Positions 3,427 to 39,931 of a stretch of DNA of 64,000 nucleotides are shown here, piece by piece. The DNA is taken from positions 1-64,000 of the forward strand of contig JAJTHN010000016.1 in assembly GCA_021297895.1 (NCBI GenBank). Direction: 5' to 3'. Both the position numbers and the translations under genes were made by a program. How positions within the stretch are numbered: position 1 is the first letter of the stretch; each line of letters begins with the position of its first letter. The DNA is from Phycisphaeraceae bacterium. Its GTDB lineage: Bacteria; Planctomycetota; Phycisphaerae; Phycisphaerales; UBA1924. Below the pieces are notes generated by a model. That model was not told the origin of the DNA. It did not search any database and saw only the letters and a list, made by a program, of their open reading frames with translations.

Positions 3427-5775
3427 ATGATGCGTTCCTCGTGCCTGCCGATGGATATGTCCGCGATGGTGATTCTGGGTCTGGTGCTGGCCGCGGGGAG
3501 CGTGCTGGTCGCGCCGCAGTCGGCGCGCGGCGCCGCGGCGGCCCAGGTTGGCGGGGCCGGGGGGGTTGGCGGGGCCGGTGGGGTTGGCGGGGCCGGGGGC
3601 GCGGGCGAGGCCGTCGGGCAGCCCGGCCGCGGCGAGCTCATCGAGGGGCCGACCAAGCCGGTCGCTCGCTTCGTCTCGCAGACCTTCAAGGAGACCGACC
3701 GCGTCGCGACGTTCGCGCTGCAGCGCCAGTTCGCCCGCGCGGCGGATCTTCCGGCGGACTTCGCCGTGCGCCCGGTCTTCTCGACCATGGCCGATGGCAA
3801 GCAGCGGCTGCGGGTGGAGATCGGCAAGGGCACATCGCTCTACGGCACGGGCGAGCAGGCCGGGCCGCTGCTCCGCAACGGGCGCAGCGTCACGCTGTGG
3901 AACACCGACGCGTACGGCTATAACGAGAACACGGCGTCGCTCTACAAGAGCCACCCGTGGGTGCTGGCGGTCCGTGCCGATGGCACGGCCTTCGGCGTGC
4001 TGATCGACACGACCTGGCGCGCGGTGATCGACCTTGATGGCGCGATCACCGTCACGCACGAGGGCCCGCCCGCGCCGGTGTACATCATCGACCGCGCCAG
4101 CCCGCAGGAGGTCATGACCGCGCTGGGCGAGTTGACGGGCTTCATGCCGCTGCCGCCGATGTGGGCGATCGGCTACCACCAGTGCCGCTACAGCTACTTC
4201 CCCGAGGCCCGCGCCCGCGAGGTTGCGCAGGGCTTCCGCGATCGCGGCATCCCGGCCAGCGTGATCTGGTTCGACATCGACTACATGGACGGGTACCGCA
4301 CGTTCACGTTCGACAAGGCGCGATTCCCCGATCCCAAGAAGCTCAACGCCGACCTTGAGAACATCGGCTTCCGCGCGATCTGGATGATCAACCCGGGCAT
4401 CAAGGACGAGCCGGGCTTCTTCGTGCGCGATCAGCTTGTCAAGGCCGGCTTCGAGGTCAAGAAGGCCGACGGCACCAGCTATCGCGGGGCGGTCTGGCCG
4501 GGCATGTGTGTGTTCCCGGATTACACCAGCCACGACGTCCGCGCGTGGTGGACGACGCTGTACAAGGACTACATGGCCAACGGCATCGACGGCGTCTGGA
4601 ACGACATGAACGAGCCGGCGATCTTCGATGTCGCATCCAAGACCATGGATGAGACCAACCAGCACCGCGGCGGGCTGTACAAGGCCTATCCCGACAGCGC
4701 GCCGCAGACCGTCACTCCCGGCACGCACGCGCGGTTCCACAACGTCTACGGCATGCTCATGAGCCAGGCCAGCTACGAGGGCATCCTCGCGGCCAACCCC
4801 GACCGCCGCCCGTTCGTGCTCACGCGCGCGGGGCACCTGGGCTCGCACCGGTACGTCGCCTCGTGGACCGGCGACAACACCGCCAACTGGACCGACCTTG
4901 AGCAGAGCGTGCCCATGATCCTGAACCTCGGCCTCTCGGGCTGGGCGTTCACCGGGCCGGACATCGGCGGGTTCATCGGCGACGGCCCGCGCGGCGACTC
5001 GCCCGAAGAGACCGCACGCCTCCGCGGCGAGCACTTCGCCCGCTGGATGGGCATCGGTGCGCTCATGCCCTTCAGCCGCGGCCACACCGCCAAGGGCAAC
5101 ATCGACAAGGAGCCGTGGGCGTTCAACAAGGACACCGAGAACGCTTCGCGCATCGCGCTCCAGCGCCGATACGCGCTGATGCCGTACCTCTACACGCTCT
5201 TCTACGAGGCCAGCACCAACGGCATGCCCGTCGCGCGGCCCGTGTTCTTCGCCGACCCGAAGGACCCGGCGCTCCGCAGCGAAGATGACGCGTTCCTGCT
5301 CGGGGCCGATGTGCTCGTCGTGCCGCAGCTCATGCCCGATGGCACGCGCACGCCCGTGCTGCCCAAGGGCATCTGGCGTCCGTTTGATGTTGTCGCTGAT
5401 CGTCACCCCGCCAACCCCGATCTGCTCATCCGCGGCGGCGCGATTGTGCCCTCCGGCCCGGTGGTGCAGAGCGTCGCGCTGCCGACGGACAACTCCGAGC
5501 CGCGGACGCTGTACGTCAGCCTTGACGATTCCGGCCAGGCCCGCGGCGCGGTGTACGAGGATGCGCAGGATGGCTTTGCGTATCAGAAGGGGGACTACCT
5601 CCTGACGCTCTACACCGCGCGGATCAACGGTGATGAGGTGATCGTGAGCGTGAGCGGGACCAAGGGAGATCGCCCGCGGCCGGCTCGCGACCTGATCGTC
5701 CGCGTGGTCACCGATGAGGGCATCCGCGAGGCGCGCGGCAAGGACGGTGCCGACGTGCGCGTGCGGCTGCGCTGA
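3427..5775 (+). CDS. Glycoside hydrolase family 31 alpha-glucosidase, secreted
   Basis: This 782-residue enzyme should hydrolyse terminal alpha-linked glucose, or a related alpha-glycoside, outside the cytoplasm. An N-terminal hydrophobic stretch is followed by a Gly-rich slippery repeat (GGVGGAGG units, about residues 38-60). The GH31 N-terminal beta domain follows, then the barrel. The nucleophile is Asp393 in WNDMNEP and the acid/base is Asp483 in SWTGDN. The substrate-pocket motif WFDIDYMDGYRTFTFD is also present, and RGGAIVPSGP marks the C-terminal beta domain. Length is normal for the family. GGAG lies about 7 nt before the chosen ATG. The neighbours are unrelated, so the natural substrate is not indicated. 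Confidence 0.93.
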   Translation: MMRSSCLPMDMSAMVILGLVLAAGSVLVAPQSARGAAAAQVGGAGGVGGAGGVGGAGGAGEAVGQPGRGELIEGPTKPVARFVSQTFKETDRVATFALQRQFARAADLPADFAVRPVFSTMADGKQRLRVEIGKGTSLYGTGEQAGPLLRNGRSVTLWNTDAYGYNENTASLYKSHPWVLAVRADGTAFGVLIDTTWRAVIDLDGAITVTHEGPPAPVYIIDRASPQEVMTALGELTGFMPLPPMWAIGYHQCRYSYFPEARAREVAQGFRDRGIPASVIWFDIDYMDGYRTFTFDKARFPDPKKLNADLENIGFRAIWMINPGIKDEPGFFVRDQLVKAGFEVKKADGTSYRGAVWPGMCVFPDYTSHDVRAWWTTLYKDYMANGIDGVWNDMNEPAIFDVASKTMDETNQHRGGLYKAYPDSAPQTVTPGTHARFHNVYGMLMSQASYEGILAANPDRRPFVLTRAGHLGSHRYVASWTGDNTANWTDLEQSVPMILNLGLSGWAFTGPDIGGFIGDGPRGDSPEETARLRGEHFARWMGIGALMPFSRGHTAKGNIDKEPWAFNKDTENASRIALQRRYALMPYLYTLFYEASTNGMPVARPVFFADPKDPALRSEDDAFLLGADVLVVPQLMPDGTRTPVLPKGIWRPFDVVADRHPANPDLLIRGGAIVPSGPVVQSVALPTDNSEPRTLYVSLDDSGQARGAVYEDAQDGFAYQKGDYLLTLYTARINGDEVIVSVSGTKGDRPRPARDLIVRVVTDEGIREARGKDGADVRVRLR

Positions 5776-34946: not shown

Positions 34947-38036
<3,090 letters not shown>

Positions 38037-38074
38037 GGGCAGTGGTGCTCAATGGGGCGATCGGTGAAGCAAGG

Positions 38075-38080
38075 AGTCTA
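38075..38080 (-). promoter_or_regulatory. Possible -10 of the alaS-atp operon
   Basis: The minus strand reads TAGACT 38 nt before the alaS ATG and beyond the terminator hairpin. It therefore suits an alaS-specific start. No strong -35 was seen. Confidence 0.35.
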
Positions 38081-38137
38081 GGAACCCGGGACCCGGGCGT
38101 ATCGACCCGGAGCGCAAAGAGCCAAAAATGCGACAAA

Positions 38138-38173
38138 GGCCCGAAGGCGATCAAGAAGCATCGCCATCGGGCC
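38138..38173 (-). terminator. Intrinsic terminator after the micropeptide gene
   Basis: On the minus strand GGCCCGATGGCGAT pairs with ATCGCCTTCGGGCC (one T-T mismatch) across the loop GCTTCTTG. TTTGTCGCATTTTT follows. The stop of the 26-codon gene is 22 bp upstream. It separates that gene from alaS. Confidence 0.7.
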
Positions 38174-38194
38174 AAAGTTGCGCGTGCCGGAGGA

Positions 38195-38275
38195 TTATGG
38201 CAGAGCCGAGTGTTCGACGGGGCCGAGGAACAGCGCCAAGATCGACAGGCACAGGAACGAGATTACGAGTCTCAT
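38195..38275 (-). CDS. 26-residue membrane/secreted micropeptide
   Basis: ATG at 38275 is preceded by CAAAGGAG and a 7-nt spacer (AGTGAGC), the best Shine-Dalgarno site I see in the window. It encodes 26 residues: a charged start (MRL), a Leu/Ile/Phe-rich core (VISFLCLSILALFLG) and a short tail with Glu and His, then TAA. The core is long enough for one membrane helix or a signal peptide. The frame is too short for routine gene callers. A terminator follows 22 bp later, making a self-contained unit on the alaS strand. An alternative is a leader peptide for alaS. Its composition is Leu-rich, so alanine-based attenuation is not favoured. No family is recognised. Confidence 0.55.
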   Translation of the reverse strand: MRLVISFLCLSILALFLGPVEHSALP

Positions 38276-38463
38276 GCTCACTCTCCTTTGGTGTGCCCCC
38301 GTCAGGGGGCATTGACTGGCCGACCCACGCGGGATGGCTCGGAGAAGCATGCCATCCATCGTGCTCCGGGTCGAACGTTTGAGACATTGGCGGTGTGGCC
38401 GGGTTCGGGCTGTTGGGGTTGTCCGGAATGTGCAGGTGAACTGTGCGCGATGAGCGTCCGATA

Positions 38464-38469
38464 TAGACT
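38464..38469 (+). promoter_or_regulatory. Possible -10 of sthA
   Basis: TAGACT within ATATAGACT lies 46 nt before the sthA ATG and matches the hexamer class used elsewhere in the window. Confidence 0.3.
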
Positions 38470-38515
38470 GCATCGGCGTTTCGAAACCTTGACTCGAGGC
38501 CCTTTGGGGACGTTC

Positions 38516-39931
38516 ATGCGACACTGCGACCTTTGCGTTATCGGCAGCGGCCCTGGCGGGCAGAAGGCGGCGATTCAGGCCGCCAAGTTGGGAAAGGACG
38601 TGGTGGTCATCGAGCGCATGGATGTCGTCGGCGGCGTGGCGATCAACACGGGGACGATCCCGAGCAAGGCGCTTCGCGAGGCGGTGGTGGCCGCGACCAG
38701 TGCGCACAACGTCGCGCCGGGCATGGGTGTGCCGGTCGTATCGCGGGAAACGCGCGTGCAGCAGTTGCTCGAGTCCTGCAATCGTGTGATCCGGTCGGAG
38801 GTCGAGCTCGTCCGCAAGCAGCTGGCGTCCAACGGCGTCGAGGTCATCCACGGGCATGGCTCGTTCATCGATGCGCACACGGTTCAGGCCGATGGGCCCC
38901 GCGGCGTGGAGCGAATCACCGCGGAGAACATCCTGATCGGCGTGGGCACATCGCCGGCGCGGCCAGAGACGGTGCCCTTTGACCGAAAGGTCATCATCAC
39001 CAGCGACGAATTGCTGCGAATGGAGACGCTGCCGCGGACGATGATCGTCGTCGGCGGTGGTGTCATCGGGACCGAGTACGCCTCGATGCTCGCGGCCCTG
39101 GGTGTCCGCGTGACGATCATCGAGGGCCGCCCGCGGCTGCTGGAGTTCATCGACCAGGAAGTCGGCGAGGCGCTGCAGTATCACCTTCGCCAGGCGGGGT
39201 GCACGCTTCGCCTCGGCGAAAAGGTCGCCGGCATGCGGGCCGTGCAGGCCCCGAGGGGATCCAGCGGCGGCGACTCGATCATGGCCGAGGCCACGCTCGA
39301 AAGCGGCAAGACGATCGTCGCGGATTGTCTGCTCTTTAGCATCGGCAGGCAGGGCGCGACATCGGCGCTCAATCTCGCCGCGGCGGGGTTGTCAGCGGAC
39401 AACAGGGGACGCATCAAGGTCAACAACCGTTTCCAGACCGCGGTGCCGCACATCTACGCGGTCGGCGACGTGATCGGGTTCCCCGCCCTGGCGAGCACGA
39501 GCATGGAGCAGGGACGGCAGGCGGCGCTGGATATGTTCGGTGAGCGAGTCGAGACGGTCGCGGAGCTGATTCCTTACGGCATCTACGCGATCCCCGAGAT
39601 CTCCATGGTCGGCTGGACCGAGGAGGCCCTGACCAAGGAAGGGATCCCTTACGAGGCGGGCATCGCCCACTACAAGGAAATCGCCCGCGGCCAGTTGCTG
39701 CACGACGACGTGGGCATGCTCAAGCTGCTCATCCATCAGGAGAGCCACGCGCTCCTGGGCGTCCACTGCATCGGGACCAACGCGACCGAGTTGGTGCACA
39801 TCGGTCAGGCGGTCATGGCGTTCAAGGGAACGGTGGAGTACCTGGTCAACGCGGTTTTCAATTATCCGACCTTGGCCGAGTGCTACAAGGTGGCGGCGCT
39901 CAACGGGCTGAATAAGCTTCGGCACACGTGA
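38516..39931 (+). CDS. sthA: Soluble pyridine nucleotide transhydrogenase
   Basis: The 471-residue flavoprotein balances NADPH and NADH by hydride transfer. It has the lipoamide-dehydrogenase fold: FAD Rossmann motif VIGSGPGGQKAA, NAD motif VVGGGVIGTEYASML, and YAVGDVIGFPALASTSMEQGR. The redox loop reads GGVAINTGTIPSKALREAV. The two cysteines of lipoamide dehydrogenase are absent, which distinguishes SthA. ATG 38516 puts the Rossmann strand at residue 7; the open frame further upstream (to 38042) is not coding-like. GGGGA lies just before it. A small coiled-coil gene overlaps its stop. Confidence 0.93.
   Translation: MRHCDLCVIGSGPGGQKAAIQAAKLGKDVVVIERMDVVGGVAINTGTIPSKALREAVVAATSAHNVAPGMGVPVVSRETRVQQLLESCNRVIRSEVELVRKQLASNGVEVIHGHGSFIDAHTVQADGPRGVERITAENILIGVGTSPARPETVPFDRKVIITSDELLRMETLPRTMIVVGGGVIGTEYASMLAALGVRVTIIEGRPRLLEFIDQEVGEALQYHLRQAGCTLRLGEKVAGMRAVQAPRGSSGGDSIMAEATLESGKTIVADCLLFSIGRQGATSALNLAAAGLSADNRGRIKVNNRFQTAVPHIYAVGDVIGFPALASTSMEQGRQAALDMFGERVETVAELIPYGIYAIPEISMVGWTEEALTKEGIPYEAGIAHYKEIARGQLLHDDVGMLKLLIHQESHALLGVHCIGTNATELVHIGQAVMAFKGTVEYLVNAVFNYPTLAECYKVAALNGLNKLRHT

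Follow-up and report, generated by a model that had tools for sequence, protein, structure and literature searches.

Does the DNA between alaS and the divergent sthA-like gene encode a protein of its own? The question is raised by a 26-codon frame in the window, which here means the whole 64,000-nucleotide stretch of the Phycisphaeraceae bacterium contig that was analyzed. The hydrophobic 26-residue open reading frame (ORF), its Shine-Dalgarno (SD) sequence, and the hairpin behind it were all found at the positions given in the earlier note. The features of the locus are as follows.

38,195 to 38,275, minus strand: 26-aa ORF, ATG start and TAA stop, translation MRLVISFLCLSILALFLGPVEHSALP, hydropathy 2.74
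38,283 to 38,289, minus strand: SD sequence AAAGGAG, 7-nt spacer to the ATG, duplex energy -9.3 kcal/mol
38,294 to 38,311, minus strand: 7-bp hairpin TGCCCCC-TGAC-GGGGGCA, directly 5' of the SD
38,124 to 38,173, minus strand: intrinsic terminator-like hairpin (7 bp, a T-T mismatch, 6 bp, 8-nt loop) with an interrupted T tract
38,075 to 38,080, minus strand: TAGACT, the likely -10 element of alaS, between the terminator and the alaS start codon
38,464 to 38,469, plus strand: TAGACT, the likely -10 element of the divergent sthA, the same hexamer as that of alaS
34,947 to 38,036, minus strand: alaS (alanine--tRNA ligase), 1029 aa (TIGR00344, 830 bits), a neighbor outside the unit
38,516 to 39,931, plus strand: sthA-like gene for a Si-specific NAD(P)(+) transhydrogenase (NF003585, 609 bits), the divergent neighbor

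Inspection of the predicted polypeptide reveals a single basic residue followed by a hydrophobic core of ∼16 residues, with a 16-residue mean Kyte-Doolittle value of 2.74. Small membrane proteins are characterized by a frame of fewer than 50 aa and a single hydrophobic stretch long enough for one helix, and both are present here. The best explanation of the locus, to which we assign a probability of a little under one-half, is a gene confined to this lineage that encodes a single-helix membrane peptide, possibly similar to a type I toxin, and has its own terminator; that the frame is a genuine translated gene is put at about one in two. A short RNA would carry the strong SD and the 26-codon frame and be ended by the intrinsic terminator. 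The product may be a single-helix peptide lying in the cytoplasmic membrane, with its N-terminal Arg2 inside and a core from Leu3 to Gly18; its target there would probably be a membrane partner or the permeability of the membrane itself. That the frame is transcribed and translated, and that the product enters the membrane and has a function, is what we infer from the features of the DNA. The membrane micropeptide proposed in the earlier note thus stands as the best reading of the hydrophobic core, SD, and terminator, but as an unproven one.

Longer versions of the frame were considered and set aside. Starts in the same frame at 38,359 and 38,350, yielding 54 and 51 aa, have weaker SDs (-5.8 kcal/mol) and lower codon scores. 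A 329-aa GTG frame that encloses the 26-aa ORF is antisense to sthA and was rejected as a gene.

The SD of the ORF was calculated to form a duplex of -9.3 kcal/mol, against -7.2 kcal/mol for the best of the 46 genes called in the window, using what we take to be the anti-SD sequence. The description of this ribosome site as the best in the window therefore holds among the crudely called starts. Genome-wide, its strength is unexceptional, being equaled or bettered by 7.5% of 1014 sampled genes.

The likelihood of a chance frame was assessed in a sample of 81 stretches, which cover 1.33 of the 3.48 Mb of the genome and in which genes were called by a crude codon-score method rather than by a standard caller. 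The intergenic DNA of this sample contains 1922 distinct frames with lengths of 15-60 aa. A hydropathy of 2.3 is reached by six of these, and only one of the six has an equally strong SD, namely the 26-aa ORF, which a reader had singled out from 64 kb of sequence. By comparison, 20 dinucleotide shuffles of the same DNA yielded a mean of 0.8 hydrophobic frames and 0.05 that also had a strong SD. A fortuitous frame with such an SD and such hydrophobicity is rare.

The codon score is 6.2 bits in the frame of the ORF, compared with -21.6 and -5.2 bits for the strand's other two frames; among 1553 start candidates with lengths of 20-32 aa, 60 match or exceed 6.2. The synonymous choice beats 98.9% of draws made from base composition (1.1% reach it), and 6.4% of draws made from gene codon usage fall to its level or below. 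It lies between genes and background and leans toward genes. The GC content at third positions (20 of 25) did not differ significantly from intergenic GC (P = 0.08).

A strict scan for terminators between 36,000 and 40,500 gave no sites and missed the hairpin at 38,173-38,124 because its T tract is interrupted. Application of a looser rule to the 1.33-Mb sample resulted in 50 raw sites, of which 3 fall in coding DNA, and 41 distinct ones. Twenty-seven of the distinct sites, mostly with interrupted T tracts, end at a distance of 45-85 nt from the called stop before them. Terminators of this type (TTTCGTTTTT, TTGTCTTTTT, and similar) are found 50-80 nt behind many genes, and the standard scan rule misses them.

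At the 26-aa ORF, ∼20 nt separate the stop codon from a 36-nt hairpin (38,173-38,138) that runs into TTTGTCGCATTTTT. Together with the T tract, it ends at 38,124, 57 nt past the stop, which fits the 45-85-nt spacing between gene and terminator in this genome. The terminator lies 3567 nt from any called same-strand gene, in that no such gene ends within 3.5 kb upstream. Twelve sites in the sample are >130 nt from a called stop; a hydrophobic SD-led frame was found upstream of the present site but of none of the other 11. Given this spacing, the lack of a called same-strand gene nearby, and the uniqueness of the frame among these sites, a transcript very probably ends at this terminator, with the micro-ORF as its natural content.

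The locus had also been described as a complete transcription unit. The ORF, SD, and terminator-like hairpin bear this out, but a promoter-like element was not found upstream: the minus strand contains no TANNNT, the σ70-like -10 pattern, from the ORF back to 38,600. Within 120 nt, this pattern precedes 222 of the 522 genes with free upstream DNA, compared with 96 on the opposite strand. The hexamer TAGACT occurs upstream of genes 14 times in the sense and 2 times in the antisense orientation among the 522 upstream regions, and CTANNMT-like hexamers recur near the start of alaS, on its 5' side, in many relatives.

For sthA, the score-based choice of start was 38,504, whereas the alignment with relatives places it at 38,516. 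A 158-codon open extension of sthA on the plus strand, reaching across the locus, was not kept, as relatives align from the ATG at 38,516. Between 32,662 and 38,036, alaS lies directly upstream of same-strand genes for ATP synthase subunits a and c, and the order alaS, atpB, atpE was also observed at a distant relative locus, L046, from a Planctomycetota metagenome-assembled genome.

Searches for relatives of the peptide gave no credible match in its own genome besides itself, and no credible homologue among 163 genomes of the family at E = 1 (six weak others), among 397 genomes of the class at E = 0.1 (three weak others), or among plasmids. The doubtful cases among the weak matches (E = 0.08-1) were opened and lay inside or opposite the long frames of other proteins or beside a stop. 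The peptide matched no Pfam family and no toxin family; its best NCBIfam match, the PhrK pheromone (E = 0.076), scored 13.3 bits where the cut-off is 35 and was rejected. At the DNA level, comparison of 38,040-38,520 with 61 genomes and of 38,120-38,330 with 163 revealed nothing beyond stretches of 22-36 nt in other genomes. The best of these, 22 of 22 nt in genome G010 (per-genome E = 4e-4), falls within a long frame of the opposite strand that is unrelated, and was read as chance.

The gap itself was compared at the loci of relatives. A match to alaS was present in 57, and 29 of these loci were inspected; the divergent sthA is kept in 10 of the 29, and the 26-aa frame is absent from the gap in all 10. 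The gap measures 479 nt here, compared with 88-257 nt in nine of the ten and 777 nt in the tenth. Up to 600 nt upstream of alaS, short hydrophobic frames were found in 4 of the 29 (L014, L028, L030, and L035), none with a strong SD or any likeness to the peptide. From a more distant set, 16 of 80 loci were examined, of which 15 show alaS and 14 reach its start. No short hydrophobic frame was found upstream of alaS at these 14, 3 of which, on short contigs, offer less than or close to 600 nt (L055 and L057 being clearly truncated).

In the sets searched, the genus is represented by the genome of the window alone, so that the comparison is one at family distance. The absence holds at that distance only, and a peptide of 26 aa can easily be younger or diverge past detection. 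Because the peptide was found in no other genome searched, it is most likely a lineage-specific representative of a familiar general kind, the small membrane peptide.

It is somewhat unlikely that the transcript ending at the terminator is a non-coding small RNA or a remnant, in which the frame is fortuitous. The strongest signal at the locus is indeed structural: the fold of the 211-nt RNA is predicted at -88.5 kcal/mol, compared with -68.7 kcal/mol for shuffles (z = -4.65). In this predicted fold the SD and AUG are buried, GGAG being unpaired at a probability of only 1-9% and the AUG at ∼10%. However, z is -3.65 for the terminator stretch and -1.13 for the ORF, and the excess stability stems mainly from the terminator. 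No Rfam family reached its gathering score at the locus, and none matched up to E = 5 over 37,900-38,560. The rarity of such a frame in shuffled DNA (a mean of 0.05, compared with the 1 observed) also speaks against a fortuitous frame. The 14-base core of the hairpin 5' of the SD has no second copy in the genome, even with one mismatch allowed.

The frame is quite unlikely to be the relic of a gene for a secreted or membrane protein of which only the start of the signal peptide and the old terminator survive. The peptide does resemble the n- and h-regions of a signal peptide, and the gap between alaS and sthA is longer than in 9 of 10 relatives. Against this, the ∼20 nt between stop and hairpin leave little space for a lost protein body, and the searches turned up no protein whose start is convincingly homologous.

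A small probability is given to a more elaborate form of the membrane peptide gene, in which a genus-specific type I-like or regulatory micropeptide would be made from a unit of its own in the gap separating sthA from alaS once some signal opens the buried ribosome site. A folded-away SD is a feature associated with type I toxin mRNAs, and the combination of a hydrophobic peptide with a hidden SD is present here, the burial of the SD being predicted.

To a leader peptide for alaS and the atp genes that follow, as the earlier note had also suggested, here with an attenuator as the means of control, a still smaller probability is given. The frame, terminator, and alaS do follow one another on one strand, with the atp genes after alaS both here and at L046. 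In this order, the locus is like that of attenuator leader peptides such as peTrpL (PMC7298713), a short SD-led frame preceding a terminator upstream of a same-strand gene. Unlike such leaders, it has no run of the cognate residue, no antiterminator, and a promoter-like -10 element belonging to alaS itself. That element (38,080-38,075) sits behind the terminator, the two Ala residues among the 26 are separated, and the best alternative pairing of the 5' arm of the terminator reaches -17.9 kcal/mol against -25.3 kcal/mol for the terminator, and attenuation of alaS by the frame is therefore unlikely. No similar frame precedes alaS in the 10 syntenic relatives or at the other relative loci inspected, and the leader is disfavored.

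Least probable is a type I toxin-like, membrane-depolarizing peptide restrained by RNA structure at its hidden SD and by an antisense RNA, for which the size, single hydrophobic core, and predicted burial of the SD would speak, but which has no homologue or toxin family match and no antisense promoter of the TANNNT type inside the unit, the sole plus-strand TANNNT in 38,050-38,516 being that at 38,464 before sthA.

Membrane peptides as small as the one preferred here exist, and some act on membrane potential, as YohP and DinQ show (PMC7549839 and PMC3567139). YohP of E. coli has 27 aa, and its insertion into the membrane has been demonstrated experimentally (PMC7549839); DinQ, a tiny single-helix peptide, belongs to the type I toxin-antitoxin locus dinQ-agr (PMC3567139). 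The putative 26-aa peptide has in common with YohP its length and single hydrophobic segment and with DinQ its tiny single-helix form, with no homology claimed in either case.

By itself, the 26-aa gene candidate touches no long-standing question. If translated, it would be another orphan small membrane protein missed by routine gene calling, in this case from planctomycete-like bacteria, for which a limited literature search retrieved no paper combining small proteins and ribosome profiling. It also supplies a recipe for finding more: terminators that follow no called gene can be screened for SD-led hydrophobic frames ∼55 nt upstream.

Six short paralogous-looking hydrophobic frames were noticed elsewhere. 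Short frames that combine strong hydrophobicity with a good codon score were seen at L134 (5039-5113, plus strand), L126 (731-913, plus strand), and L188 (minus strand, with a start around base 3515 of the reverse complement). These three lie in DNA left free by the crude calls and are candidates for missed small membrane proteins or for parts of miscalled genes.
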